A DNA stretch of 64,000 nucleotides from Deltaproteobacteria bacterium CG11_big_fil_rev_8_21_14_0_20_47_16 (GTDB lineage: Bacteria; UBA10199; GCA-002796325; 1-14-0-20-47-16): the NCBI GenBank assembly GCA_002796325.1, contig PCXA01000002.1, positions 62,001-126,000 of the forward strand, read 5' to 3'. The notes below the pieces were generated by a model that did not search any database, was not told the DNA's origin, and saw nothing but the letters and a program-made list of their open reading frames with translations. Shown in pieces: positions 101 through 38,157 of this stretch. The position numbers and the translations under genes are program-made. Each line of letters starts with the position of its first letter. The stretch's first letter is position 1.

Positions 101-889
101 ATGCCCGAACTACACGTTATCGTCTACCTGCTTCCGATTGTCTTTGTCGCCGGATTCATTGACTCAGTCGCTGGCGGCGGCGGGCTCATTACTGTTCCTG
201 CTTATTTAATTGCAGGCTTTCCACCCGCCACACTTTTAGGAACCAACAAATGTGTTTCCACCATGGGAACCGTCGTCTCCGCAAGCAAATATATTCACAG
301 TGGGCGCATCTTATGGCCAGTGGCCATTATTGGAATCCCCTGCTCGCTCATCGGATCTGTCTGGGGTGCCCACACCGTTGCACTCTTGGATGCATCCATT
401 GTACGCAAAATCATTTTAGTTGCCCTACCACTTGCTGCAGCAATCACATTGATTCCCAAACCCCATGGCCATATCGAGACCGACATCGGGTGGCGTTCGC
501 TTCGCTTATGGATTTTGATTCCAATTATTAGTTTTGGACTGGGATGGTACGATGGCTTTTTTGGTCCGGGCACAGGTAGCCTACTTATCATGCTGATGTA
601 TGGCATCGCAGGCATGTCACTGATTCACGCCGCTGCAGTGGGACGACTATTTAATTTAGTTTCTAATGCCAGTGCGCTCTTCACCTTCATGTGGCATGGG
701 CAGGTTTGGTATAAAGCCGCACTGCCATTGGGAATTGCAGGAATCGCAGGTCACTGGTGTGGATCTCACTTGGCAATTAAGCGGGGTCACGGCATGGTTC
801 GTGGAATGCTGGTGGTTACTTGTGGACTGCTATTTGCTTACTTGATTTGGCAACAATTTAAGATGCCGATTTCGCCAACCAATCAATAA
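101..889 (+). CDS. TSUP/TauE-SafE family membrane transporter
   Basis: 262-aa multi-[30 protein letters not shown] and [13 protein letters not shown] motifs typical of the TSUP family. Confidence 0.88.
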
Positions 890-1259
890 TTTCAGTCGTT
901 GCAGTACCCGGGGTAAAGATTTGAGAAACACCCACTTTTTTGAGGGCAATAATATCTTCATCAGGAATAATACCACCACCAAACACCAAAATATCGGTGG
1001 CATTTTTCTCTTTAAGCAATTCCATGACCCGCTGAAACAAATGCATGTGCGCACCTGAGAGAATGGACAGTCCAATGGCCTGCACGTCTTCTTGCAAGGC
1101 CGCATTCACAATCATTTCCGGCGTTTGATGCAAGCCCGTGTAGATGACTTCAAATCCCGCATCACGCAGGGCACGCGCCACCACTTTCGCACCGCGGTCA
1201 TGGCCATCAAGGCCGGGCTTACCGATCAATACACGAATTTTTTTGGTTTGTTTTTTCAT
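858..1259 (-). CDS. B12-binding small subunit of acyl-CoA mutase
   Basis: DGHDRGAK (DxHxxG), SILSG and FGGGI cobalamin-binding motifs; stop/start adjacent to the large subunit. Confidence 0.93.
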
Positions 1260-2848
1260 TAGAACATCGCCGGGTCTGTATGCAGCCCAAATTCAGACTG
1301 CATGGTGGAAATCATCTCATTTTCCGTGCAATACGCACGTACACAATCAATCAAACGGGGCATCACATTCTCAGTTCCTGCGCATGCCTTCTTAAGCGCA
1401 GCCAAGGTTGCTTCTACTTTCTTTGGGTCGCGTTCTGATTTTACCTTAGCTACCTTTTTAGACTGCGACACTTGCAACGACTCATCAATACGCAACAACG
1501 GAATCGGTGGATTTTCATCCACCAGAAAATCATTCACACCCACGACAATTTTTTCATTCGATTCCAATTGCTTTTGATAAATGTAGCTGGCGTTGGCAAT
1601 TTCACCCTGAGGGTAGCCTAAGTCAATCGCTGCTAGCATGCCCCCCATGTCATCAATCTTCTTGATGTAATCGTAGGCCTCGGCTTCCAATTCACAGGTC
1701 AACTTTTCAACAAAATACGAGCCACCTAGTGGGTCTACTGTATTTGTAACGCCGGTTTCCTCGGCAATAATCTGTTGCGTACGAAGCGCAATACGCGCGG
1801 TTTCTTCTGTGGGAAGTGCCAGAGTTTCATCCAGTGAATTGGTGTGTAGCGATTGGGTTCCACCCAAAACAGCAGCCATCGCCTGCAATGCCACACGCAC
1901 CACATTGTTGTAGGGTTGTTGTGCAGTCAGTGTGCATCCTGCAGTTTGCGTATGGAAGCGACAAAGCCACGAGCGCGGATTTTTAGCATGGAAGCGTTCC
2001 TTCATAATGTGCGCCCACATGCGGCGTGCGGCGCGATACTTGGCTATTTCTTCAAAAAAGTCATTATGGGCATTGAAGAAATAGGACAGTCGCGGTGCAA
2101 AATCGTCTACATTCATGCCGCGATCCACACAGGCCTGCACATAGGCAATGCCATCCGCAATGGTAAATGCCAATTCTTGCGCTGCTGTCGAGCCTGCTTC
2201 ACGAATATGATAACCTGAAATAGAGACGGTATTCCACTTGGGGACTTCTTTCGTGCAAAACTCAATCATATCGACAACCACGCGCATGCTCGGTTCCGGA
2301 GGAAAACACCAAGCGTGCTGTGCAATAAACTCTTTCAAACAATCATTTTGAATGGTGCCACCAATTTTGCTCCATGGAACGCCACGCTTTTCAGCCAACC
2401 CTAAGTACAAAGCCAGCAGTACGCATGCAGGGCCATTAATCGTCATGGATGTCGTCACTTGATCGAGTGGAATCCCATCAAACAAGACTTCCATGTCGGC
2501 GAGTGTATCAATTGCCACACCACACTTCCCCACCTCACCAAGACTGCGTTCTTGATCAGAGTCATAGCCCATGAGTGTTGGGAAGTCGAAGGCGACTGAC
2601 AATCCGGTTTGTCCGTGATCCAACAAATATTTATAGCGGGCATTGGTCTCTTCAGCAGAACCAAACCCCGAAAAGAGGCGCATCGTCCACACTTTGCCGC
2701 GATACATGGTTTCATGAACGCCACGTGTATACGGGAAGTGCCCAGGCTGACCCAAATAGGTTTCAATGGACCAGTCCGATGGCAAACTATCCGCGGTATA
2801 AAGCGCTTCAATCGGATGATTTGAAACTGTTGTAAATTTTTGAGTCAT
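1259..2848 (-). CDS. B12-dependent acyl-CoA mutase large subunit (methylmalonyl-CoA mutase family; isobutyryl-CoA mutase-like residues)
   Basis: [30 protein letters not shown] and [13 protein letters not shown] motifs; Phe59 and Gln177 at the substrate-specificity positions. Confidence 0.93.
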
Positions 2849-4000
2849 TTAAGCTGTCAATTCCTTCAACACGTTACGCGCAATTACGATGCGTTGAATT
2901 TCACTGGTTCCTTCATAGATTTCAGTAATCTTTGCATCCCTGTAGTGACGCTCCTGTGGATATTCACAGCAATAGCCATAGCCACCCAGAATTTGCACCG
3001 CCTCTTTGGTCACAAAGGTTGCCGTTTCAGATGAGAAAAGCTTGGCCATCGCCGCTTCTTTGCTCATGGGAATATTATTCTGGCGCATCCAGGCTGCACG
3101 ATGTGTGAGCAAACGAGATGCATCAATACGCATGGCCATATCGGCAATTTTTTGTTGAATGAGCTGGAAGTTACTAATCGGTTGATTAAATGCTTCACGA
3201 ATCGTTGAATATTTAACAGATGATTCAAATGCCGCACGCGCGATACCAATTGCTTGTGTTGCAATGCCGATACGGCCTGCATCGAGTGTGTTCATCGCAA
3301 TCGCAAAACCTTCACCTTCTTTGCCCAAAAGATTTTCAGCCGGCACTTCACAGTCAGTTAGCACAATTTCAGAAGTGCTTGATGCGCGAATCCCCATCTT
3401 GTGTTCCACTTTACCTACGCTAAATCCTTTAAAGCCTTTCTCAACAATAAACGCGCTAATGCCTTTGTGCTTCTTTTCTTTATCTGTCATGGCGAATACA
3501 ATCATGGCATCGGCGTTGGGGCCGTTCGTGATAAAGTTTTTCGTGCCATTCAAAATATATTTATCACCCTTCTTGACTGCAGTTGTGCGTTGATTGGCTG
3601 CATCAGATCCGGTACCTGGTTCGGACAAGCAGTACGCACCCAACTGTTCACCCTTAGCAAATGGAACAACATATTTTTGCCTTTGCGCATCGGTACCAAA
3701 TTTCACAATCGGAATGCAGTAGAGCGAATTATTGACTGACATAGTCACTGCCGTTGATGCGCAGGCCGCACTGATTTCTTCTAAAACGAGAACATAGGCC
3801 ACTTGATCCATACCGCCGCCACCCAATTCGGGTGGCACCATAATGCCCATGAAGCCAATTTCCGCCATTTTCTTTATGGCTTCGATTGGAAAATGGGATT
3901 CCGCATCCCACTTCGCGGCAAAGGGTGCGACTTCCTTTTGTGCAAAATCGCGTGCCATCTGCTGAATCATTTTATGATCTTCTGACAATTGAAATTCCAT
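2849..4000 (-). CDS. Acyl-CoA dehydrogenase, short-chain/butyryl-type
   Basis: YCLSEPGTGSDA, FITNGP, ITEIYEGTSEIQRIVIAR (catalytic Glu in YEGTSE as in short-chain enzymes). Confidence 0.92.
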   Translation of the reverse strand: MEFQLSEDHKMIQQMARDFAQKEVAPFAAKWDAESHFPIEAIKKMAEIGFMGIMVPPELGGGGMDQVAYVLVLEEISAACASTAVTMSVNNSLYCIPIVKFGTDAQRQKYVVPFAKGEQLGAYCLSEPGTGSDAANQRTTAVKKGDKYILNGTKNFITNGPNADAMIVFAMTDKEKKHKGISAFIVEKGFKGFSVGKVEHKMGIRASSTSEIVLTDCEVPAENLLGKEGEGFAIAMNTLDAGRIGIATQAIGIARAAFESSVKYSTIREAFNQPISNFQLIQQKIADMAMRIDASRLLTHRAAWMRQNNIPMSKEAAMAKLFSSETATFVTKEAVQILGGYGYCCEYPQERHYRDAKITEIYEGTSEIQRIVIARNVLKELTA

Positions 4001-4011
4001 ATTACCCTCTC

Positions 4012-4785
4012 TTATTTAAAATTCGCTTTTCGCTTTTCTAAAAATGCAGTGAGACCTTCCACACGATCAGGATGATCAAACAATTCAGTAAACCCTTCAC
4101 GCTCAACGGTCATGCCTTCGTGAATCGGCAGATCCATACCCTGTGAAATAGAACGTTTGGCCGCACGAATCGCAAACTGACTGTTATCGGCAATTTGTTT
4201 GGCCACCACTTCGGCTGCCATTTTGAGCCCCTCATGGGGAACCATTTGATTCACAATCCCCCATGCTACGGCTTCTTCTGCCTTGAGACGGCGGCCAGTA
4301 AAAATGAGTTCTTTTGCGCGTGCCGGGCCCACCAAGCGGGTGAGCCGCTGCGTACCACCGAACCCTGGGTACAACCCCAAACTGACTTCTGGCAATCCAA
4401 AGACCGACTTATTGGATGCAATGATCCAGTCACAAGCGAGTGCCAATTCACAGCCACCACCCAATGCAAATCCATTCACGACTGCAATGACTGGCATTGG
4501 GGCATCTGCAATCGCATCCATGCAATCCTGACCCAAGCGAATGAATTTGTCAGCATCTGCTGGACTCATCTTTTGCATGGCAGCGATATCCGCACCTGCT
4601 ACAAAGGCTTTATCTCCAGCGCCCGTTAGCAAAACAACGCGTGTACTATCATCCGCTGCAAGCCGTTCAAATGTGGCCGTCAACTCTGAAAGCACATCCG
4701 CATTAAGTGCATTCAACGCCGGTTGGCGATCCACAATTACAGTGGCAATAGGTCCTTCTTTTTCAACTCTAATAAACTGCGTCAT
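4012..4785 (-). CDS. Enoyl-CoA hydratase (crotonase)
   Basis: AFVAGADIAAM, NGFALGGGCELALACD, SLGLYPGFGGTQRL. Confidence 0.92.
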   Translation of the reverse strand: MTQFIRVEKEGPIATVIVDRQPALNALNADVLSELTATFERLAADDSTRVVLLTGAGDKAFVAGADIAAMQKMSPADADKFIRLGQDCMDAIADAPMPVIAVVNGFALGGGCELALACDWIIASNKSVFGLPEVSLGLYPGFGGTQRLTRLVGPARAKELIFTGRRLKAEEAVAWGIVNQMVPHEGLKMAAEVVAKQIADNSQFAIRAAKRSISQGMDLPIHEGMTVEREGFTELFDHPDRVEGLTAFLEKRKANFK

Positions 4786-4794
4786 CGTGTCTCC

Positions 4795-5643
4795 TTAGTA
4801 CTGGTAGAATCCTTTTCCGCTCTTGCGTCCCAACCATCCCTTTTGCACATAATCAAGAAGCAAGGGGCATGGTTTAAATTTGGGATCCACCAAGCCATCT
4901 TGCATGACATCTAAAATATTCACGACGGTATCCAAACCAATAAAGTCCGCCAATGTCAGTGGCCCCATTGGAAAATTGCAGGACAGCTTCATTGCGGTAT
5001 CAATGTCTTGCACACTCGCCAAATTTTCCTGAACGGCATAAGCAGCTTCATTGATCATAGGCATTAAAATGCGGTTTACAATAAACCCGGCACGATCCTT
5101 GGAAACCACCATTGTCTTGCCCAACTTAGTTACCAGTCCCTTAATCGTTTCAAAGGTCGTATCATTAGTCGCATCTGCGACAATAACTTCCACACATGGC
5201 ATAAGCGGCACGGGATTCATAAAGTGCATGCCAATGACTTTACCGGGGCGTTGAGTCGCCTCAGCCAACTTGGCAATTGAAATGGATGACGTATTACTGG
5301 CCAAAATAGCATCAGCCTTCAGAATTTGATCAAGCGACTTGAACAGTTGTGATTTTACTTTCAAGTCTTCAGTCACAGCTTCAATGACCACATCTGCTGC
5401 TGCAAAATCACTCATCTGTGCGGTTGTTCGAAGATGCGCCATAATATCAGCCACAGCATCAATTGGAATCTTTCCCTTGGCCGCAAATTTTTCAAGTGAC
5501 GTACGAATGGATTGCACAGCCTTTTGTAAGCCCACTTCATTGGTGTCCAGTAGCAAGACGTCAAACCCTGATTGCGCAAACACCTGAGCAATTCCTGCTC
5601 CCATTTGCCCTGCACCCACAACTCCGATAACCTTTGGCATCAT
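4795..5643 (-). CDS. 3-hydroxybutyryl-CoA dehydrogenase
   Basis: GVVGAGQMGAGIAQVFAQSG Rossmann motif; ASNTSSISI, GMHFMNPVPLM, GFIVNRILMPMINEA. Confidence 0.94.
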   Translation of the reverse strand: MMPKVIGVVGAGQMGAGIAQVFAQSGFDVLLLDTNEVGLQKAVQSIRTSLEKFAAKGKIPIDAVADIMAHLRTTAQMSDFAAADVVIEAVTEDLKVKSQLFKSLDQILKADAILASNTSSISIAKLAEATQRPGKVIGMHFMNPVPLMPCVEVIVADATNDTTFETIKGLVTKLGKTMVVSKDRAGFIVNRILMPMINEAAYAVQENLASVQDIDTAMKLSCNFPMGPLTLADFIGLDTVVNILDVMQDGLVDPKFKPCPLLLDYVQKGWLGRKSGKGFYQY

Positions 5644-5655
5644 TACACAGCTCCC

Positions 5656-6831
5656 CTATCGTTCCACAATCATGGCAACAGCTTCACCACCACCAATACA
5701 CAATGTGGCCAGCCCGCGCTTTACATTGCGGCGCTTCATTTCATAAATGAGCGTTGTTAATATACGCGCACCACTCGCCCCAATGGGATGGCCCATTGCA
5801 ACCGCTCCACCATTCACATTCACTTTATCGAGCGACAATTTAAAATGATCGACAGCGGCCATCGCCACGCACGAAAACGCTTCGTTGATTTCAAATAAAT
5901 CGATGTCTTCAATTGTAAGACCTGCTTTATCTAGTGCCTTCTGTATCGCCACAACCGGGGCTGTTGTAAACCACTCCGGTGCCTGACTGGCAGTGGCATG
6001 TGCAACAATAGTTGCAAGTGGTATCTTGCCATTCTTTTGTGCGTATTCTGCAGAGGTCACCACAAGTGCTGCAGCACCATCGTTGAGCGTTGACGCATTA
6101 CCGGCGGTGACACTTCCTGCCTTATCAAACGCAGGACGCAGACTTGGCAACTTTGCCGTATTGCCACGCGAGGGCTCCTCGTCGGTATCGACAATAAGCG
6201 GATCACCCTTACGCTGTGGCACTGCCACTGGCGCAATTTCATCTTTGAAACGACCATCTTTAATTGACGACAACGCACGTTCGTACGACATGGTGGCATA
6301 CTGATCTTGCGCTTCACGACTCATCTTGAATTCACGCACGCACATCTCAGCAGCCGCACCCATGTGAAAATTATTATAAGGATCCCACAAACCATCCAAA
6401 ATCATGCTGTCGAGTAACTCGCCGTGACCCATGCGATAGCCAGTGCGGGCCTTTTGTAATAAGTATGGCGCACGACTCATGTTCTCCATACCGCCAGCGA
6501 CAATTGCTGAGCAGTCACCACTGCGAATCATTTGATCAGCCAACATCACCGCTTTCAAACCTGAGCCACAGACTTTGTTAATTGTTAGCACGCCCGTTTC
6601 AACAGGTAAGCCAGCCTTCAAAGAGGCTTGGCGTGCAGGTGATTGACCAAGACCTGCCGGCAACACACAGCCCATAATGACTTCTTCAATCTGATTGGCA
6701 GGAATTCCCGCGCGTTCCACCGCCGCCTTGATGGCGGCCGCCCCCAAATCCGGTGTTGGAACCTCGGCAAAGGCGCCCTGGAAGGAGGCAATTGGTGTTC
6801 GTGCTGCACTTAAAATGACGGTATTTTTCAT
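5656..6831 (-). CDS. Acetyl-CoA C-acetyltransferase (thiolase)
   Basis: [54 protein letters not shown]. Confidence 0.95.
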
Positions 6832-12582: not shown

Positions 12583-13422
12583 CTAAGACGTGCGCCACTG
12601 GCGCATCCAGTTGGCAATGGGCAGCAGCTTTTGCAGTGCAATTCCGGTTGCAACGCCATTGTTGTCAAGCATCTCCACAACTGATTCAGTAGCAACGTTA
12701 CCTTTGGCACCTGGTGCAAAGGGGCATCCCCCCAAACCACCTACGGCGCTATCAATCGTGGTAATACCTAAAGATTGTGCCACACGAATATTTTCCAACG
12801 CACGCCCATTGGTATCATGGAAATGTACGGCAATGCGATCCGCTGAAATTGTTTTGAGAAGGATTACAAGCAGACCGCGCACTTCATCGGGGGTTGCGTG
12901 ACCAATCGTATCGCCAAGAGAGACTTCCCAACACCCCATCTTGATCAATTCAGCAGCGAGGGCGACAACTCTTTCAGGTTTGATGGCGCCTTCATAAGGG
13001 CAATGCCAGCAGGTGGATAGATAACCCCGGACATCAATTTGATGAGGCGCTGCCATTTTGATAACGTCTTGAATCTTGGCAAGGGAATCGCCAACCGACA
13101 TGCGAATATTTTTTTGATTAAAGGTTTCAGAGGCCGCAGTAAACACTGCAACACTTGTCATGCCCGATTGAATTGCCGCGTCCATTCCTTTTGGATTCGG
13201 AACAAGCGCGGTATAGCGCACACCTGGTTTACGCGTAAGGCGCTTGACCACCTCGGCTGTGTCCGCCATCGTTGGCACCAAATCAGCGCGCACAAACGAG
13301 CCCACTTCCACATGCTGAACACCTGCATCGACAAGATCGTGAATCAATTTTACCTTGTCATCCGTGGACATTATTTTGGATTCATTTTGCAAACCATCGC
13401 GCGGCCCCACTTCGACAATCAT
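12583..13422 (-). CDS. Hydroxymethylglutaryl-CoA lyase
   Basis: VEVGPRDGLQNE, HFHDTNGRALENI, DSAVGGLGGCPFAPGAKGNVATE. Confidence 0.95.
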   Translation of the reverse strand: MIVEVGPRDGLQNESKIMSTDDKVKLIHDLVDAGVQHVEVGSFVRADLVPTMADTAEVVKRLTRKPGVRYTALVPNPKGMDAAIQSGMTSVAVFTAASETFNQKNIRMSVGDSLAKIQDVIKMAAPHQIDVRGYLSTCWHCPYEGAIKPERVVALAAELIKMGCWEVSLGDTIGHATPDEVRGLLVILLKTISADRIAVHFHDTNGRALENIRVAQSLGITTIDSAVGGLGGCPFAPGAKGNVATESVVEMLDNNGVATGIALQKLLPIANWMRQWRTS

Positions 13423-15062
13423 TCAACCTCCGCAATTTTTTTGCCCATCTCCACCATATCGCCCACTTTATAATTCAGCTTGGTGACAGTCCCTGCCTCT
13501 GGCGCCTTGATCGCATTTTCCATCTTCATAGCTTCCATCACAAGAAGTGTGTCCCCTGCTTCAACGGAATCACCTTCTTCAACCAAGACCTTAACAACGC
13601 GACCTGGCATGGGTGCAATGAGAGAACCCGCAGGCTTTGCGCGACGACGCCCTGTACGTGGTGACGCGGTGGATGAAGAAGACTGTCCTGCTATTGAATC
13701 TGTTTGAGAACTGGTTGCAGGATGCCATGGGCTATAGGGATCATTACGCGGTGGTGATTCTTGCGTCCAATGACTGACAAAAGCATCCACAAAGTGCGTA
13801 TCCACATTGCCATGGATAAAACCGGGTGATCGCAAAATATCGACCAGGAATGGGATGTTTGTTGTAACCCCTTCAATTGTATAATCCTGTAACGCAGTAA
13901 TCATGCGAGTAATTGCCGCCCCACGTGTTTCCGCATGGGTCACCACTTTGGAGAGCATGGGATCAAAATCAATTGTTACGGCAGTGCCCGGTGTGAGCGC
14001 ACTTTCCATGCGCACACCCATGCCAGATGGCTCCGACAGGCGCGCCACACGGCCTGTAACAGGCAAAAAGCCATTCTGCGGATCTTCGGCATAGATACGA
14101 CATTCAATGGCATGCCCTTTGGGTTTCACATCACTTTGATTGAGCGACAGTTTTTCACCCGATGCAATTCGCAACTGCCACGCCACCAAGTCCACATCGT
14201 AGACCTCTTCGGTTACGGCATGTTCCACCTGCAGGCGTGTGTTCATTTCCAAGAAATAATAATTATGATGATGGTCCATCAAAAATTCCATGGTGCCCGC
14301 ACTCACATAGCCCACATGCTTGGCCACCTTGACAGCTGCCTCTCCCATTTCCTTCCGAAGCGCATCACTCACCGCAGGACTCGGTGATTCTTCCACAATT
14401 TTTTGATGACGACGTTGCAGCGAACAATCGCGTTCACCCAGATGCACGGCATTGCCATGGGTATCGGCCAGAATTTGAATTTCGATATGACGTGGATGCT
14501 CCACCAGTTTTTCAATAAAGACGGTGCCATCGCCAAACGCAGCAAGTGCTTCGCGACTGGAGGCGGCCATCGCATCTTTCAGATCCGCCGCCGCCTTCAC
14601 CACGCGCATGCCTTTACCACCACCACCTGCAGCGGCCTTCACCAGAACCGGATAGCCAATCTTGGCAATGGCTTCGGCAACGGTATCAAAGTCGTCCATA
14701 CCCGTCATAATCCCCGGCACGGTCGGCACGCCCAGTGTTTGCATGAGCTGCTTGGCCGCTACTTTATTGCCCATCTGACGCATCACTTCGGCCGACGGGC
14801 CAACAAAAATAATCTTGGCCTTGGCACAGGCCTCCGCAAATTTTGGATTTTCAGAGAGAAAGCCATAGCCCGGATGAATGGCATCGCATTTTTTCGCTTT
14901 GGCAATTTGAATGATGCGATCAATATCCAGGTAGGCCGCAATGGGCTGAACATCGTTATAGACTTGAATAGGTGTCACCCCCAATGCACGACACGCGCGT
15001 GAGATGCGATTGGCAATTTCACCTCGATTAGCGATGAGAAGACGCTGGATCATAGCATCCAA
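13419..15062 (-). CDS. Biotin carboxylase/BCCP alpha subunit, probably methylcrotonyl-CoA carboxylase alpha
   Basis: LIANRGEIANRISRACR, KAAAGGGGKGMRVV, EMNTRLQVEHAVTE, C-terminal biotinyl MEAMKMENAI. Confidence 0.92.
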   Translation of the reverse strand: MDAMIQRLLIANRGEIANRISRACRALGVTPIQVYNDVQPIAAYLDIDRIIQIAKAKKCDAIHPGYGFLSENPKFAEACAKAKIIFVGPSAEVMRQMGNKVAAKQLMQTLGVPTVPGIMTGMDDFDTVAEAIAKIGYPVLVKAAAGGGGKGMRVVKAAADLKDAMAASSREALAAFGDGTVFIEKLVEHPRHIEIQILADTHGNAVHLGERDCSLQRRHQKIVEESPSPAVSDALRKEMGEAAVKVAKHVGYVSAGTMEFLMDHHHNYYFLEMNTRLQVEHAVTEEVYDVDLVAWQLRIASGEKLSLNQSDVKPKGHAIECRIYAEDPQNGFLPVTGRVARLSEPSGMGVRMESALTPGTAVTIDFDPMLSKVVTHAETRGAAITRMITALQDYTIEGVTTNIPFLVDILRSPGFIHGNVDTHFVDAFVSHWTQESPPRNDPYSPWHPATSSQTDSIAGQSSSSTASPRTGRRRAKPAGSLIAPMPGRVVKVLVEEGDSVEAGDTLLVMEAMKMENAIKAPEAGTVTKLNYKVGDMVEMGKKIAEVE

Positions 15063-15799
15063 CTGGGTTTACGTTTTTCGAGGAATGCACTCATGCCTTC
15101 TTGGCCTTCGGGGGTGACACGAATATTGGCGATGGCATTAATAGTTTTGCTGACCATGGCGGGTGTGATTTTGGGGATTAACTCCTTCACCATTTGCTTG
15201 GCCGCAATGATGGCCTTGGGGCCACCCGTCATCAAGATACTCAAAATTTTGTCGAGCTCTGCTTGTAATTGATCACGCGGCACTACGGAATGCACCAAGT
15301 CCAAACCTGCAGCCTGGGCCGCGCGCAGTCGTTCACCCGTAATAAAATAACGACGGGATTGCGACGTACCAATCTTTTGAATCACGTATGGCGCAATAAT
15401 CGAAGGAATGATGCCCAGCTTCACTTCGGACAATCCAAAAACACAGTCTTCCGATGCAATCACAATATCGGCAACAGCCACCAGTCCCACGCCCCCACCG
15501 ATCGCTGCACCTTGCACCACCGCAATGAGCGGCTTCTTCAAATTGTAAAGTGTGGCCATCAGGTTTGAAATCAATGTGGCATCTTTTTTATTTTGGGCCT
15601 TACTTGCATGCAGCGAACTCTTCATCCATTGCAGATCGGCGCCTGCACAAAAGAAGTCCCCTTCACCGCGCAATACAATTGCACGCACACTGGGATCTTT
15701 ATCCGCGGCTTTTGCCTCACGAATCACGCGCTGGATCATTTCTGGATTCAATGCGTTTCGAACTTCGGGTCGGTTGAGTGTAATTATTGCTATTGTCAT
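15050..15799 (-). CDS. Enoyl-CoA hydratase/isomerase, probably methylglutaconyl-CoA hydratase
   Basis: NRPEVRNALNPEM, FFCAGADLQWM, GAAIGGGVGLVAVADIV; operon context. Confidence 0.85.
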   Translation of the reverse strand: MTIAIITLNRPEVRNALNPEMIQRVIREAKAADKDPSVRAIVLRGEGDFFCAGADLQWMKSSLHASKAQNKKDATLISNLMATLYNLKKPLIAVVQGAAIGGGVGLVAVADIVIASEDCVFGLSEVKLGIIPSIIAPYVIQKIGTSQSRRYFITGERLRAAQAAGLDLVHSVVPRDQLQAELDKILSILMTGGPKAIIAAKQMVKELIPKITPAMVSKTINAIANIRVTPEGQEGMSAFLEKRKPSWML

Positions 15800-15801
15800 G
15801 T

Positions 15802-16317
15802 TCAAAATTTCCCTGAAAAACCAACGGCAGGAGCAAGGTTACCAGAACTATTACTCACAGCGGTTGGATAGATAATTCTTGCACTGCCTTCCCGTAATGC
15901 ATAACCAACAAGGGCACCAATCACTGGGCCCAGAACTATTAGTCCCAATCCACCAAGAGAAACAAAAATTGCCGTACCCGTAGGGTCGCCACTGGAACCT
16001 CTATTGCTACCCACTGTGGATATCAGTGCAATACCACCCCCGACACCCACTGCTGTACCAATCAAAAGCCCAGGCAATATCCTACTTTTGACAGACTCAA
16101 TTGATTCAAGATCACTCAATGAATATGATCTTTTACCCTTTTCGTAGACCAATTCTTGATCAGTCTGGAGCTCCAAATTTTTACCCAAAGTACAAAACTT
16201 TTTATCAGTCTTGGGATAAACACAGTAGCGCGTCTTTGGTTCAAAACTCAAAGTATCTGCAAATGAAACCGACTGGACCACGAACATAGCGCATAGCAAC
16301 ATTGCGAATAACTTCAT
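15802..16317 (-). CDS. Hypothetical membrane protein inside the carboxylase operon
   Basis: Signal peptide MKLFAMLLCAMFVVQSVSFA; glycine-rich hydrophobic segments; stop 2 nt before the hydratase ATG. Confidence 0.7.
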   Translation of the reverse strand: MKLFAMLLCAMFVVQSVSFADTLSFEPKTRYCVYPKTDKKFCTLGKNLELQTDQELVYEKGKRSYSLSDLESIESVKSRILPGLLIGTAVGVGGGIALISTVGSNRGSSGDPTGTAIFVSLGGLGLIVLGPVIGALVGYALREGSARIIYPTAVSNSSGNLAPAVGFSGKF

Positions 16318-16325
16318 CTATCCTC

Positions 16326-17918
16326 TTACATTCTAAACACGCCGTACTTGGGATCCCCAAACGGTCGGTTAAGTGCGATTGAAATGCCCTGTGCCAAAAC
16401 ACGGCGTGTATCCACAGGATCAATAATGCCATCATCCCACAGACGTGCCGTGGAATAGTACGCACTACTTTCTGCTGCGTATTTATCGAGTATTGGTTTC
16501 TTGAACGCCTCTTCTTCAGATTTACTCATCGGCTTGGTTTCATTTTTGACGGTTGCCAAAACATTGGCCGCTTGCTCGCCGCCCATGACTGAAATGCACG
16601 CATTCGGCCACATCCAAAGTTGGCGCGGTTGATACGCGCGCCCGCACATGCCGTAATTGCCAGCACCATACGACCCACCAATCACCACTGTAAATTTGGG
16701 CACCACTGAATTGGACACCGCCATCACCATCTTGGCGCCGTCTTTCGCGATGCCGCCATTTTCATATTGCTTGCCCACCATGAAACCTGTGATGTTTTGT
16801 AAAAACACGAGTGGCACGCCGCGCTGATTGCACAACTCAATAAAATGCGCCGCCTTCAGTGAACTTTCAGAAAAGAGTACACCATTGTTGGCCACAATAC
16901 CGACGGGATAACCCATGATGCGTGCAATGCCGCAGACAATAGTTGTACCATAAAGTGCTTTAAACTCATGAAAGCGGCTGCCATCCACCAAGCGGGCAAT
17001 CACTTCATGCACGTCATATGGTTTTTTGAGATCACTATTAATGACACCGTAAATTTCAGATGGATCGTACAAAGGCGCTTCGGGTGGCAGAACATCGAGC
17101 GATTGCTTCACTGATTGCGGTACTGTTGAAACAATAGACCTCAGGATTTCTAACGCATGGGCGTCGTCCTCCGCATAATGATCGGCCACACCGGAGTTAC
17201 GACAATGCACATCTGCGCCACCCAGGTCTTCGGCGGTAACCACTTCACCCGTCGCGGCCTTCACCAACGGCGGTCCACCCAAAAAGATGGTGCCTGTTCC
17301 TTTTACAATTATCGTTTCATCACTCATGGCCGGCACGTATGCACCACCCGCGGTGCAAGATCCCATGACCGCTGCAATCTGTGGAATGCCCTGCGCACTC
17401 ATTTGCGCCTGGTTATAAAAGATGCGACCAAAGTGGTCTTTATCAGGAAATACTTCGGCCTGCAGCGGTAAGAATGCCCCACCGGAATCCACCAAATACA
17501 CGCAGGGCAGTTTGTTTTCGAGTGCGACTTCTTGTGCGCGCAGATGTTTTTTAACGGTGAGTGGAAAATAAGTGCCGCCTTTAACCGTTGCGTCATTCGC
17601 AATAATCAAACACTCGCGGCCCGACACCGTTCCCACACCAGTCACAACGCCCGCACCAGGGGCCTCATTATTATAGCAATCCCATGCGGCCAGTTGAGAG
17701 AACTCCATGAACGGAGAACCGGCATCCAAAAGACCTGCCACACGCTCACGCGCTGTCATCTTGCCGCGGTCTTTGTGACGTTTCTGGGCAACTTCTCCGC
17801 CGCCCGCGCTCACCTTGGCCTTGGCAGCTGAAAATTCTTCCATGACCGCCGCAAAGTCTTTTTGGTTGGTTTTATAAAGCTCTGATTTTGTGTCGATATG
17901 AGAGTCGATGATATCCAT
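16326..17918 (-). CDS. Carboxyl transferase beta subunit, probably methylcrotonyl-CoA carboxylase beta
   Basis: [56 protein letters not shown]. Confidence 0.95.
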
Positions 17919-32687: not shown

Positions 32688-33158
32688 TTAGGATTTGTCC
32701 CAATCCTTCACAACACGGGCCTTGCCCAGTGCCGAAAATGGGATAGTGTAATCAACACCATCCACGGTCATAAAAATATTTTCTTCATCACAGCTCTTCA
32801 AAATACCACGATAGTTTTGGCGTCCTGCCAACGGCGCAACGGTTTTCAATTTCACAGTCTCTCCCAAGAACCGTTTAAAATCTTCAAAGTACCGCAATGG
32901 ACGTTCAATGCCGGGCGACGAAATTTCCAAATCGTAGGCACTATCAATTGGATCTTCTACATCCAAGTGGGTGGATAAAACGATGGACATTTGCGCACAA
33001 TCGTCCAATGTTACACCGCCTTCTTTATCAATGTAGAGCCGCAAGATCTGGCGCCCAGAGTCCCGGAGCAATTCCCGCTCAACCAAACGAAACCCTCTGC
33101 TCTCCAATACCGGCTTAACCGTCATTTCCACCTTTTGGAGTTGTGAATTTTTATCCAT
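32688..33158 (-). CDS. rimP: Ribosome maturation factor RimP
   Basis: LRLYIDKEGGVTLDDCAQMS, YDLEISSPGIERPL. Confidence 0.95.
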   Translation of the reverse strand: MDKNSQLQKVEMTVKPVLESRGFRLVERELLRDSGRQILRLYIDKEGGVTLDDCAQMSIVLSTHLDVEDPIDSAYDLEISSPGIERPLRYFEDFKRFLGETVKLKTVAPLAGRQNYRGILKSCDEENIFMTVDGVDYTIPFSALGKARVVKDWDKS

Positions 33159-33173
33159 ATTCGCACCACAAAA

Positions 33174-33213
33174 ACAAAATGGGCCTTAAAGGCCCACTTT
33201 GTAGGTTACAAAG
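33174..33213 (-). promoter_or_regulatory. Two overlapping hairpins in the rimP-nusA-infB leader (attenuator-like)
   Basis: IR 33197-33213 (CTTTGTA-N3-TACAAAG) and IR 33174-33202 (TGGGCCTT core) followed on the minus strand by TTTTGTTTTTG. Confidence 0.6.
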
Positions 33214-33223
33214 ATTGGTCGCG

Positions 33224-33253
33224 CTTATAGTGGCAAATGCCGTACCGAATCAA
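33224..33253 (-). promoter_or_regulatory. Candidate rimP operon promoter TTGATT-N18-TATAAG
   Basis: -35 33248-33253, -10 33224-33229. Confidence 0.5.
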
Positions 33254-33275
33254 GTCTTAATTCGAATAATTATCT

Positions 33276-33304
33276 TTGATTTTCAGGGATATTCAAGGCA
33301 TAGC
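33276..33304 (+). promoter_or_regulatory. Candidate mqnA promoter TTGATT-N17-CATAGC, 6 nt upstream of ATG
   Basis: -35 33276-33281, -10 33299-33304; no Shine-Dalgarno. Confidence 0.45.
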
Positions 33305-33310
33305 CGCCCC

Positions 33311-34081
33311 ATGTCAAACGAGCAGATACAACTCGGAACAGTGCCCTACCTGAACGCTGCACCGCTCTTGGCAGGCCTTTCGCAGCCTTTGCGTCGCTCT
33401 CATCCAAGGCAATTGGCGCAGCAGCTTATCAGAGGCGACATTGAATTAGCCCTCCTATCCACCTCAGTTCTTTTTGAGCATCACAACCTCTACCTGGTGC
33501 CCGGCATGGCCATTGGATGCCGCGGCCCTGTACAATCAGTTAAACTATTCTTTAATAAAGATGCATTAACTATTGAAAATATAAATAGAATTATACTAAG
33601 TCCGAATTCCAATTCGGCCAATCAGTTAACACGCATTCTCTTTCCCAAGGCCGAATTTTTGGATGGTCAAAAAATAGAAAAACTAGAAATCCCAGACGCT
33701 GAGGTGGTTATTGGAGACGATGCCCTCGTACGACCCGACGCCTTTGGCTCAATTGATATTGGACAACTATGGTGGGAACGCACAGGGCTGCCATTTGTCT
33801 TTGCTGCTTGGATCAGCCGATCCCCCCATATTTCCAGATCGTTATGGGAGCAACTCCATCACGTCAAACAGTCCAATTTGAAGAATTTGAATACGTGCTT
33901 AGACCAAATGACAGAGCCTTACCCACTCGATCGCAATGCACAGATCCGCTATTTGCAAGACAATATCCACTATGATCTGGGTGATACCGAAATGAGGGGA
34001 CTCGCTCGCTTTCGTGAGGAATGCATCACGCATAAGCTGATGCCAGCCGTCCAACCCATTCATCTCGCTACAATTATCTGA
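33311..34081 (+). CDS. mqnA: Menaquinone biosynthesis protein MqnA (futalosine pathway)
   Basis: LGTVPYLNAAPLLAGL, RGDIELALLSTSVLFEH, GCRGPVQSVKLF. Confidence 0.9.
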   Translation: MSNEQIQLGTVPYLNAAPLLAGLSQPLRRSHPRQLAQQLIRGDIELALLSTSVLFEHHNLYLVPGMAIGCRGPVQSVKLFFNKDALTIENINRIILSPNSNSANQLTRILFPKAEFLDGQKIEKLEIPDAEVVIGDDALVRPDAFGSIDIGQLWWERTGLPFVFAAWISRSPHISRSLWEQLHHVKQSNLKNLNTCLDQMTEPYPLDRNAQIRYLQDNIHYDLGDTEMRGLARFREECITHKLMPAVQPIHLATII

Positions 34082-34420
34082 TTATTTTTTAATGGACTTG
34101 GTATGGCCGTATTCGCGTAAAAAGCGGCCTGAACGTGCCTGCGTGCTTTGCGCAGTGGTACGAAGATCATCACTGATTTTATTGGTATCTGCACATTTCA
34201 TACATAACCACTGTTTTACGACCAAACGGTTGTTGTGTTGGTAGTGCTCCACATCAGATGTAAACTTGCTGCACAACTCACATTGATTGCGCATGGATTG
34301 GGCATCTGCTTCAATTCCAGCACCCTTTTGAGGGGCCTTTTTGATCTTGCGCTCCACAACCTTGTTCTGGTCAGTGGACATGAACCCTGCTTTTTGAAGT
34401 GCCTGCTTTAATGAACTCAT
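34082..34420 (-). CDS. Small zinc-ribbon hypothetical protein
   Basis: CELC-x27-CMKC paired cysteines; N-terminal SSLKQALQKAGF resembles DUF2058 starts. Confidence 0.65.
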   Translation of the reverse strand: MSSLKQALQKAGFMSTDQNKVVERKIKKAPQKGAGIEADAQSMRNQCELCSKFTSDVEHYQHNNRLVVKQWLCMKCADTNKISDDLRTTAQSTQARSGRFLREYGHTKSIKK

Positions 34421-34422
34421 AA

Positions 34423-35538
34423 TTATGCTCTACGGTTGTGGATATTTTCCAATAAGTTTTTGCTACGTGGTGAATAGACATTATTCGCACGGCCAATCTT
34501 ATCCAAGCGTCTCTTCACCAAATAATCTGCGGCATCTCGTGTTGAAATCTTCTGGTCTTCAGAAATTTCAAACACACGCATCAGGTTATAATAAATACCA
34601 CGTGTCATACGTTCAGCACGCTCGGGACTATAACCCTCTAGCTCTTGATAGACGTTGATCAAACCACCTGCGTTAATGACATAATCAGGTGCATATAAAA
34701 TACCTCTTTTACCCAAAAGATCTGCATGGGAGTCATGTTCCAATTGGTTATTGGCTGCACCTGCCACAATTTGGCATTGAAGCTCATTGATTGTGCGATC
34801 ATTAATCACAGCTCCCATTGCACACGGCGCCAAAATATCACAAGGCATCGTAATGATTTGGTTGGGCTCAGCAACTTCCAATTCTAAACGTTTTGCCAAA
34901 CCTTCCACACGCTCTTTATCAATATCTGCAATGGTCACCTTGGCGCCAGATTTGACCAGCAGCTCTGCCAAATTGCTTCCAACAGAGCCTGCGCCTTGCA
35001 CATTGATGCGGATTCCCGTTAAATCTTCGTGACCAAACTTCTTTTTCATACAAGCCAATATGCCTTGATAAACACCCAGCGCTGTAAATGGAGCGGGATT
35101 ACCACTACCGCCGTGGTTGGATTCAATCCCCACGACATAATCGGTTTCCATGTACATATATTCGGCATCATTTACATCGATACCAACATCCTCGGCAGTT
35201 ATATAACGACCACCAAGCGTATTAATGAAACGACCAAACATACGGAAGAAACTCTGAGATTTGTGCTTTTTAGGGTCACCAATAATGACCGCCTTACCCC
35301 CACCCAGGTTCAATCCGGCTGCTGCTGCTTTATAGGTCATGCCCCGTGAAAGGCGCAGCACATCCCGTAACGCATCTTCTTCAGTAGCATAGGGCCACAT
35401 GCGCGTTCCGCCCAGTGCAGGGCCTAATGTCGTATTGTGAATAGCAACAATCGCTTTGAGGCCGGTACCCTTGTCTTGAAAAAATACAACTTGCTCGTGA
35501 TCATATTCTTCCATTTTCGCTAATACAGAAACAGTCAT
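34423..35538 (-). CDS. Leucine/branched-chain amino acid dehydrogenase
   Basis: AIHNTTLGPALGGTRMWPY, AAAAGLNLGGGKAVIIGDP, YAPDYVINAGGLINV. Confidence 0.94.
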   Translation of the reverse strand: MTVSVLAKMEEYDHEQVVFFQDKGTGLKAIVAIHNTTLGPALGGTRMWPYATEEDALRDVLRLSRGMTYKAAAAGLNLGGGKAVIIGDPKKHKSQSFFRMFGRFINTLGGRYITAEDVGIDVNDAEYMYMETDYVVGIESNHGGSGNPAPFTALGVYQGILACMKKKFGHEDLTGIRINVQGAGSVGSNLAELLVKSGAKVTIADIDKERVEGLAKRLELEVAEPNQIITMPCDILAPCAMGAVINDRTINELQCQIVAGAANNQLEHDSHADLLGKRGILYAPDYVINAGGLINVYQELEGYSPERAERMTRGIYYNLMRVFEISEDQKISTRDAADYLVKRRLDKIGRANNVYSPRSKNLLENIHNRRA

Positions 35539-35555
35539 GTAGTGCTCCTCTCAAT

Positions 35556-36716
35556 TTGGAAAACAACGCGGCGCACATGCCACCAGAACTCTCATTTGTC
35601 AACTCTGGTCAAACGATCCGCTTTCATGCTACGGACGCCGGCATGCAACTTCGTGATTCTCAAAAAGCCATTGGAATTGATGGTGACCACATCACCTATG
35701 TCTGCGACCTCAATGACGCCCCTGTTGAAGCTGAGACTATTACACTTGCCGATACGGTATTACTTCCCGGCTTTGTAAATGCCCACTGCCACTTGGATTT
35801 GTCACATATGAAGGACCAATTTTCCTACAATGGATCGTTTTCAGGATGGATTCAGGAAGTGATGGCACAGCGATTGACACCCGATGCGGATGCCATGCGC
35901 TCAGCGGCACAGGCCCTCATCCAGTCCGGCGTTACATCGGTTAACGACCATGTCGGTGCCTGGTCGGACCTGTCATCGATTACAGATCTGCCACTACGCT
36001 ATCGTTTCTTCGTTGAAGTGTCAGGCGTTACCCCAGAAACAGCAGCCACGCGGCTCCAGATGGCGCAAGACTTGGCCATTCAATTGCAGCGTGAGGGGAA
36101 AATGGCCACTGCCACACCGCACTCCTCCTATTCACTCCATGCCGCCACACGGGATTCAATGATCGGAAATGCAACGACCACACTTTCCATCCATTATGCG
36201 GAGAGTGCAGAAGAAAAAGACTACTTTGTAACGGGCGCCGGCAAGATGGCCGATTTTTTACACGACCTGGGGGCACCGCAAGGAAAGCCAACCGCGATGC
36301 CGTTTCCCAAGTCGTTTCTGGCCGTGCATTGCAACACTGTCACCGATGATGACATCCAGCGATTGAAAACGAGTGGCGCCACAGTGGTGCACTGCCCGCG
36401 CAGTCATCGCTACTTTAATCACCCCCCGTTTCCATTACAGAAGCTTCGGGATGCAGGCATTCCCATTCAAATTGGCACCGACAGCTTGGCAAGCTGCCCC
36501 AACATGGACTTTTTAGAAGAGCTGCGGGCCATGCGAGAGGAATTTCCGTTTTTGACAGCAACGGAAATCCTAAAAATGGCCAGTGGCAATTGTCAGGCGG
36601 GTGGCGCCGCTTTTGCCCCAGGACAATTTGCCGATATTGTTGGACTTCCCATGCAAGATGATATTTTACAGGGACCCGTTACATTCAGCATGATTGGAGG
36701 CAAACGTGTCATTTGA
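35556..36716 (+). CDS. Amidohydrolase, aminodeoxyfutalosine deaminase-like (start may be 35577)
   Basis: LPGFVNAHCHLDLSH, IHYAESAEEKDYF, VVHCPRSHRYF, GTDSLAS. Confidence 0.8.
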   Translation: MENNAAHMPPELSFVNSGQTIRFHATDAGMQLRDSQKAIGIDGDHITYVCDLNDAPVEAETITLADTVLLPGFVNAHCHLDLSHMKDQFSYNGSFSGWIQEVMAQRLTPDADAMRSAAQALIQSGVTSVNDHVGAWSDLSSITDLPLRYRFFVEVSGVTPETAATRLQMAQDLAIQLQREGKMATATPHSSYSLHAATRDSMIGNATTTLSIHYAESAEEKDYFVTGAGKMADFLHDLGAPQGKPTAMPFPKSFLAVHCNTVTDDDIQRLKTSGATVVHCPRSHRYFNHPPFPLQKLRDAGIPIQIGTDSLASCPNMDFLEELRAMREEFPFLTATEILKMASGNCQAGGAAFAPGQFADIVGLPMQDDILQGPVTFSMIGGKRVI

Positions 36717-38157
36717 TTCTTTAAGTGAGTTTGTGAAATTTTTGGAAGACCGCGACGAACTGATTCGTATCGATCAGCCCATTGACCGCAAACTGGAAGT
36801 CACCGAAATTGCCGATCGTGTGATGAAATCCCCAGGCGGCGGCAAAGCCCTACTCTTCACTAATATTAAAGATTCGCCTTATCCGTTATTGATCAACGCC
36901 CTTGGCACCATGCAACGTGTTGCCTGGGCATTGGGCGGCGATTCCATTTCAGAATTGCAACGCAAAGTAGATGAACTCGTCAAAACCGCACCACCGTCTG
37001 GACTATTTGAAAAAATTAAGATGCTGCCGAAGTTGGCCAAATTTGGCGCACTCATGCCCAAGTCCGTGAACAGCGGCGCCTGCCAAGATGTCGTCATGGA
37101 CTCACCAAACCTTAGCAAAATCCCCATACTCACCTGTTGGCCACTGGATGCAGGGCCCTTCATTACATTTCCACTCGTTGTCACACGCGACCCCGATACC
37201 GGGCTGCGAAACGTGGGCATGTACCGCATGCAAGTCTACGACAAGCAAACAACCGGCATGCATTGGCAGGTGCACAAAACCGGCATGCGCCATTACCAAC
37301 GCTACAAAGAACTCGGCAAGCGCATGCCCGTCTCAGTGATTATTGGTGGCGATCCATCGTATACCTGGTCGGCCTGCGCCCCGCTGCCCGACGGCATTGA
37401 TGAGTTCATGATTGCTGGCATGCTGCGTGGCCGTGGCGTGGAAATGGTGAAATGTAAAACGAACGATTTGGAAGTCCCTGCAAACGCGGACTTTGTGATT
37501 GAAGGCTATGTCGACCCATCAGAACATCTGCGCCGCGAAGGTCCGTTTGGCGATCACACCGGATATTATTCGTTGGCCGATGACTATCCCGTTTTCCATG
37601 TCACAGCGATCACGCATCGCAAGAACCCCATTTACTTCACGACCATTGTTGGAAAGCCACCGATGGAAGATGGCGCCATGGGCAAAGCGATTGAACGCCT
37701 GTCCCTGCCACTCTTAAAAATGACATTCCCTGAAATTGTGGATGTGAATCTGCCGGTAGAAGCCTGCTTTCATAATCTCGCAATTGTCTCGATCAAAAAA
37801 CAATACCCCGGTCATGCCCAAAAAATTATGCACAGCATTTGGGGCATGGGTCAGCTCATGTTTTCAAAATGCATCATCGTGGTCGATGGCGACGTCGATG
37901 TACAAAATCCCGCAGAAGTATTGTGGCGCGTTTCTAATAACATTGATGCCACACGTGACTTGGTCTTAACCCAAGGCCCGGTCGATGCATTGGACCACGC
38001 CAGCCCTCGCGCCAACCTGGGCGGCAAATGGGGCATTGATGCCACGCGCAAACTGCAGAGCGAAGGCCACCCCCGCGAATGGCCACCAGATATTGTGATG
38101 AGTGACGATGTGAAGAAAAAGATCGATGGAATTTGGAAGCAGTTGGGAATCCGCTAA
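36706..38157 (+). CDS. UbiD family decarboxylase, probably menaquinone biosynthesis
   Basis: GTG start after GGAGG; PEVVDVN-type FPEIVDVNLPVEACFHNLAIVSIKKQYPGHA, GPFGDHTGYYS. Confidence 0.92.
   Translation: MSFDSLSEFVKFLEDRDELIRIDQPIDRKLEVTEIADRVMKSPGGGKALLFTNIKDSPYPLLINALGTMQRVAWALGGDSISELQRKVDELVKTAPPSGLFEKIKMLPKLAKFGALMPKSVNSGACQDVVMDSPNLSKIPILTCWPLDAGPFITFPLVVTRDPDTGLRNVGMYRMQVYDKQTTGMHWQVHKTGMRHYQRYKELGKRMPVSVIIGGDPSYTWSACAPLPDGIDEFMIAGMLRGRGVEMVKCKTNDLEVPANADFVIEGYVDPSEHLRREGPFGDHTGYYSLADDYPVFHVTAITHRKNPIYFTTIVGKPPMEDGAMGKAIERLSLPLLKMTFPEIVDVNLPVEACFHNLAIVSIKKQYPGHAQKIMHSIWGMGQLMFSKCIIVVDGDVDVQNPAEVLWRVSNNIDATRDLVLTQGPVDALDHASPRANLGGKWGIDATRKLQSEGHPREWPPDIVMSDDVKKKIDGIWKQLGIR

Follow-up and report, generated by a model that had tools for sequence, protein, structure and literature searches.

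A split mutase encoded in a butyryl-CoA operon is predicted to act on isobutyryl-CoA

Introduction

Which substrate is rearranged by the mutase encoded at 1259-2848 of the window, the whole 64,000-nucleotide stretch of DNA analyzed here, from a little-studied bacterium? The name given to this enzyme matters, in that methylmalonyl-CoA mutase (MCM) would predict propionate metabolism and not conversion of valine to butyrate. A split isobutyryl-CoA mutase (ICM) is known biochemically from Streptomyces. Mislabelling of ICM-type enzymes as MCM has a documented precedent in IcmF (Cracan et al. 2010, cited by PMC7764203), and a preliminary description of this DNA had proposed from two active-site residues that the default MCM annotation is probably wrong on substrate. 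We propose that 858-2848 very probably encodes a split AdoCbl-dependent ICM of the IcmA/IcmB type, likely running in the direction of valine breakdown; both substrate and direction are predictions from sequence. Split ICMs are already known; the operon of this one is unusually clear, as is its internal control.

Results and Discussion

Gene and operon context

The large-subunit reading frame begins with ATG at 2848 and ends with a stop at 1259 (529 aa), and the plus strand across this interval is full of stops in the ORF reading. The gene is real and lies on the minus strand, a detail absent from the preliminary description. As that description had anticipated, a family model supplies the MCM name: TIGR00641 matches over the full length with 767 bits (cut-off 304). 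PF01642 is also over its cut-off, and the MM_CoA_mutase domain has no fused B12 or GTPase domain. The IcmF model NF045497 gives only a partial match (340 bits; cut-off 1500), and no IcmF-type fusion of B12 domain, GTPase, and mutase was matched in the genome. The gene is the fifth of six minus-strand genes, with gaps of 12, 9, 11, 0, and -1 bp between them:

5656-6831, minus strand: acetyl-CoA C-acetyltransferase (thiolase), first gene of the operon (TIGR01930, 452 bits, above the cut-off of 241)
4795-5643, minus strand: 3-hydroxybutyryl-CoA dehydrogenase (NCBIfam PRK07530 and PRK05808, 373 and 368 bits, below the cut-offs of 420 and 408)
4012-4785, minus strand: enoyl-CoA hydratase (crotonase; best NCBIfam model short-chain-enoyl-CoA hydratase PRK05809, below cut-off)
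2849-4000, minus strand: short-chain acyl-CoA (butyryl-CoA) dehydrogenase, directly abutting the mutase gene
1259-2848, minus strand: predicted isobutyryl-CoA mutase large (substrate-binding) subunit (529 aa; F59, L92, Q177, and H214; from ORF, residues, PDB alignment, TIGR00641, and tree)
858-1259, minus strand: mutase small (cobalamin-binding) subunit (133 aa; TIGR00640, 166 bits), overlapping the large-subunit gene by one base

The best PDB matches of the dehydrogenase at 2849-4000 are short-chain acyl-CoA dehydrogenases (SCADs; 456-440 bits), above isovaleryl- and isobutyryl-type dehydrogenases, and the YEGTSEI motif is found at its residue 362. The small subunit carries the DxHxxG motif as DGHDRG at residue 18. 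The operon would combine acetyl-CoA/butyryl-CoA chemistry with an enzyme that would connect butyryl-CoA with isobutyryl-CoA, and this genomic context is stronger evidence than the active-site residues. A search of the whole window against Rfam found no cobalamin riboswitch at the gathering threshold, and two tRNAs only.

Like the window pair, IcmA/IcmB of Streptomyces cinnamonensis (EC 5.4.99.13) consists of separate large and B12-binding subunits, but the window pair is set in an operon with thiolase-to-butyryl-CoA-dehydrogenase genes. In Syntrophothermus lipocalidus TGB-C1, a split ICM encoded within the cluster Slip_0757-0760 is predicted to function in the oxidation of isobutyrate to butyrate (PMC5017805); that cluster includes adenosyltransferase and MeaB genes, whereas the window cluster includes β-oxidation genes.

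In the mechanism that we propose, the large subunit would bind the acyl-CoA, with Phe59 and Gln177 replacing the Tyr/Arg pair that holds the second carboxylate in MCM, so that an uncharged C4 acyl group would fit, and with His214 retained beside the thioester. The small subunit would carry cobalamin in the base-off/His-on form and supply the 5'-deoxyadenosyl radical, and a 1,2-shift of the CoA-thioester group would interconvert isobutyryl-CoA and n-butyryl-CoA. Butyryl-CoA could then be processed by the other operon enzymes via crotonyl-CoA, 3-hydroxybutyryl-CoA, and acetoacetyl-CoA to two acetyl-CoA.

Direction of the pathway

The simplest reading of the locus is that valine would be degraded through isobutyryl-CoA and butyryl-CoA to two acetyl-CoA, bypassing the methacrylyl-CoA/methylmalonate-semialdehyde route. 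The conjunction of ICM-like active-site residues with ICM-like gene neighbors suggests that the bacterium probably burns valine in this manner. Canonical enzymes of the bypassed route (HIBCH, HIBADH, and MMSDH) are not evident in this assembly, which is 99.75% complete, although divergent enzymes could fall under the model cut-offs. The ECH_2/HIBCH model matches only a segment of a 792-aa protein and the crotonases of the two clusters in this window, and nothing in the genome exceeds the cut-off for MMSDH (best 257 against 448.5 bits) or HIBADH (best 179 against 292 bits). The genome does encode a branched-chain-type E1-alpha (best matches BCKDH, 164 bits versus 139 for PDH), an ETF-quinone oxidoreductase (ETF-QO), a PduO-type adenosyltransferase, and MeaB, the last on a different contig from the mutase operon. 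Supporting context is provided by a minus-strand, leucine-degradation-like cluster at 12583-17918, outside the operon at a distance of 6 kb:

12583-13422, minus strand: HMG-CoA lyase (379 bits, over cut-off)
13419-15062, minus strand: biotin carboxylase/BCCP (family model match)
15050-15805, minus strand: methylglutaconyl-CoA-hydratase-like crotonase (model search)
16326-17918, minus strand: carboxyltransferase (read from the ORF)

Alternatively, the same ICM may run mainly in reverse, converting acetyl-CoA via butyryl-CoA to isobutyryl-CoA, which would then prime the synthesis of branched fatty acids. Every step is reversible in principle, and ICM provides polyketide building blocks in Streptomyces (PMC2847961). 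Nevertheless, we consider this direction rather unlikely given the catabolic surroundings, with the leucine cluster in the same window, the SCAD-type dehydrogenase, the ETF-QO, the BCKDH-like E1, and the lack of an evident canonical valine route in the genome.

Elsewhere in the window, an amino acid dehydrogenase of the Leu/Phe/Val/Trp-dehydrogenase type is encoded at 34423-35538 (ScyB model, 403 bits, below the cut-off of 600); it could be a source of branched 2-oxo acids. Genes resembling the futalosine route to menaquinone, read from ORFs only, are found at 33143-38157:

33143-34081: MqnA-like protein (ORF reading)
35556-36716: amidohydrolase (ORF reading)
36694-38157: UbiD-like decarboxylase (ORF reading)

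Specificity residues of the large subunit

The translation contains Phe59, Gln177, and His214 as the preliminary description had claimed, with the spacings it had reported (118 residues between 59 and 177, 155 between 59 and 214), and a phmmer alignment sets these residues opposite Y89, R207, and H244 of Propionibacterium shermanii MutB (1req_A). The Tyr89/Arg207 pair of MCM is absent and Phe/Gln is found instead, while the catalytic His (MutB His244) is kept as H214. The fold, catalytic His, and cofactor are common to MCM and the window enzyme, but MCM has the Tyr/Arg pair and a neighborhood of propionyl-CoA carboxylase (PCC) and epimerase genes, and the window locus has neither. The Phe/Gln pair is also a likeness to IcmA/IcmB, where the preliminary description places it at Phe80/Gln198. 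IcmF of Cupriavidus metallidurans (8ssl/4xc6), whose substrate is isobutyryl-CoA, shares this pair (Phe at chain position 618 and Gln at 762, counted from the alignment), though it fuses a B12 domain, GTPase, and mutase that are three separate genes in the window genome. Both sites are recognized specificity determinants of the family, following the two-site rule that Jost et al. (2015) set out and PMC7238569 cites and applies.

To examine these columns more broadly, we collected 80 homologous loci with organism names by a scan of genome contigs and widened the set with genomes of the same class, other bacteria, and plasmid-borne homologues. When about 140 relatives are aligned jointly, the two columns vary strictly together, with Phe/Gln in 88 rows and Tyr/Arg in 55, a few of these rows being duplicate fragments of one gene. 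Here too the window protein has Phe/Gln at both columns. Other letters occur in HcmA and three distant plasmid-borne homologues. A third column, at residue 92 (codon 2573-2575, minus strand; MutB His122 by alignment), follows the same division: it is Leu or Ile in 88/88 Phe/Gln rows, Gln or His in 55/55 Tyr/Arg rows, and Leu in HcmA and in IcmF, the latter in both its class homologue and the solved chain.

The sole row mixing the pairs is a Tyr/Gln sequence (L156:7489-9007; G016:C94) at a contig end of a metagenome-assembled genome (MAG). We rejected it as a natural intermediate: its N-terminal half matches L150, among the Tyr/Arg genes of the class, at 88%, and its C-terminal half matches L052, among acidobacterial Phe/Gln genes, at 90%. 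It was set aside as a chimeric contig or a recombinant.

The closest solved relative of the large subunit, and its best PDB match, is HcmA (4r3u, 531.9 bits), which is likewise split from its partner HcmB and has Gln at the second site. This match raises the prospect of a mutase for 2-hydroxyisobutyryl-CoA, or else for pivalyl-/isovaleryl- or 2-methylbutyryl-CoA, and IcmF is indeed active on pivalyl- and isovaleryl-CoA (PMC10481361). By analogy, the substrate range of the window enzyme may be wider than isobutyryl- and butyryl-CoA. As its dedicated function, however, such a substrate is improbable: the first site of HcmA is Ile, where the window protein has Phe59, and the neighbors are genes for straight-chain C4 β-oxidation.

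Phylogeny and neighborhoods of relatives

The window protein groups among Phe/Gln sequences only, with SH-aLRT values of 96-99 for local groups in the larger tree and 95-98 in a thinned tree with both columns masked. Placement within the MCM clade, which the preliminary description had named as decisive against it, was not obtained: the protein did not fall inside the Tyr/Arg set, although the backbone is weakly resolved and forcing the protein together with that set was not rejected by the AU test (p-AU 0.27). The trees lack a characterized IcmA sequence, and the IcmF-type row forms a long branch. Even with both columns masked, the division between Phe/Gln and Tyr/Arg is a single change on the tree; the agreement among residues thus mostly traces back to a single inherited division rather than to repeated independent changes. 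The nearest relatives, at about 71% identity, come from MAGs labelled as Deltaproteobacteria and Bdellovibrio, and identity to the Tyr/Arg paralogue of the same genome is 60%.

The order of the operon is kept, in whole or in part, at six of the nearest homologous loci. Among the 53 Phe/Gln and 20 Tyr/Arg loci whose flanks total 6 kb or more, β-oxidation genes neighbor the mutase at 21 of the former and none of the latter (Fisher p = 4e-4), and an epimerase or propionyl-CoA carboxylase gene at 0/53 versus 17/20 (Fisher p = 6e-14); because the loci are related, these p-values overstate independence. The butyryl-CoA neighborhood is missing at 32 of the 53 Phe/Gln loci, many of them in other phyla.

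A Tyr/Arg paralogue and a single small subunit

PF01642 identifies two mutase genes in this genome. The second, on contig 14, encodes a 498-aa Tyr/Arg protein without a B12 domain and lies within 9 kb of genes for methylmalonyl-CoA epimerase (MCE), PCCB, and PCCA. Thus, both mutase types are present in one genome, each in its expected pathway. That the window enzyme is itself an MCM tolerating Phe/Gln is barely credible, since for all that family models give it this name, the Tyr/Arg pair is absent, the role is filled by the paralogue near epimerase and propionyl-CoA carboxylase, and MCE or PCCB is nearby at none of the 53 Phe/Gln loci. Taken together, the Phe/Gln columns, the place in the tree, the butyryl-CoA operon, and the separate MCM candidate support ICM over MCM as the predicted function. 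The preliminary description was sound in its reading of the residues and silent on the surrounding operon, on the Tyr/Arg paralogue, and on the lone small subunit.

No partner small-subunit gene was found near the Tyr/Arg paralogue. By PF02310, the only free cobalamin-binding mutase subunit in the genome is that of the window operon; the remaining matches are proteins of 1142 and 498 aa, presumably a methionine synthase and a radical-SAM-type protein. The same holds for most relatives that have both mutases: in eleven genomes of the class, a Phe/Gln and a split Tyr/Arg large subunit are each present once but only one free small subunit is encoded. Its gene lies beside the Phe/Gln gene in ten of them and on a separate contig in G011. 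One free small subunit per genome with two large subunits suggests that both mutases may share it. From gene counts, we see an even chance that one small subunit serves both ICM and MCM large subunits in this genome and across the class. This is the part of our findings that would surprise; if true, the B12 cargo would act as an interchangeable module that ties the metabolism of valine to that of propionate. Our literature search, of partial coverage, turned up no account of two mutases drawing on one small subunit.

Nine genomes carry the Phe/Gln enzyme only. In these, at least nine class relatives, the MCM name would invent a methylmalonyl-CoA step. Two or three alignment columns together with operon context offer a simple renaming rule across many uncultured phyla.

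Two minor observations concern the other mutases. The Tyr/Arg paralogue (L004:8163-9659) lacks about 30 N-terminal residues of the window enzyme, and L152, L158, and L168 are similarly short. Many class genomes also encode a third mutase (L174, L175, L176) of about 655 aa, possibly ethylmalonyl-CoA-mutase-like, with a fused B12 domain, the Tyr/Arg pair, and an unusual SRGT motif.
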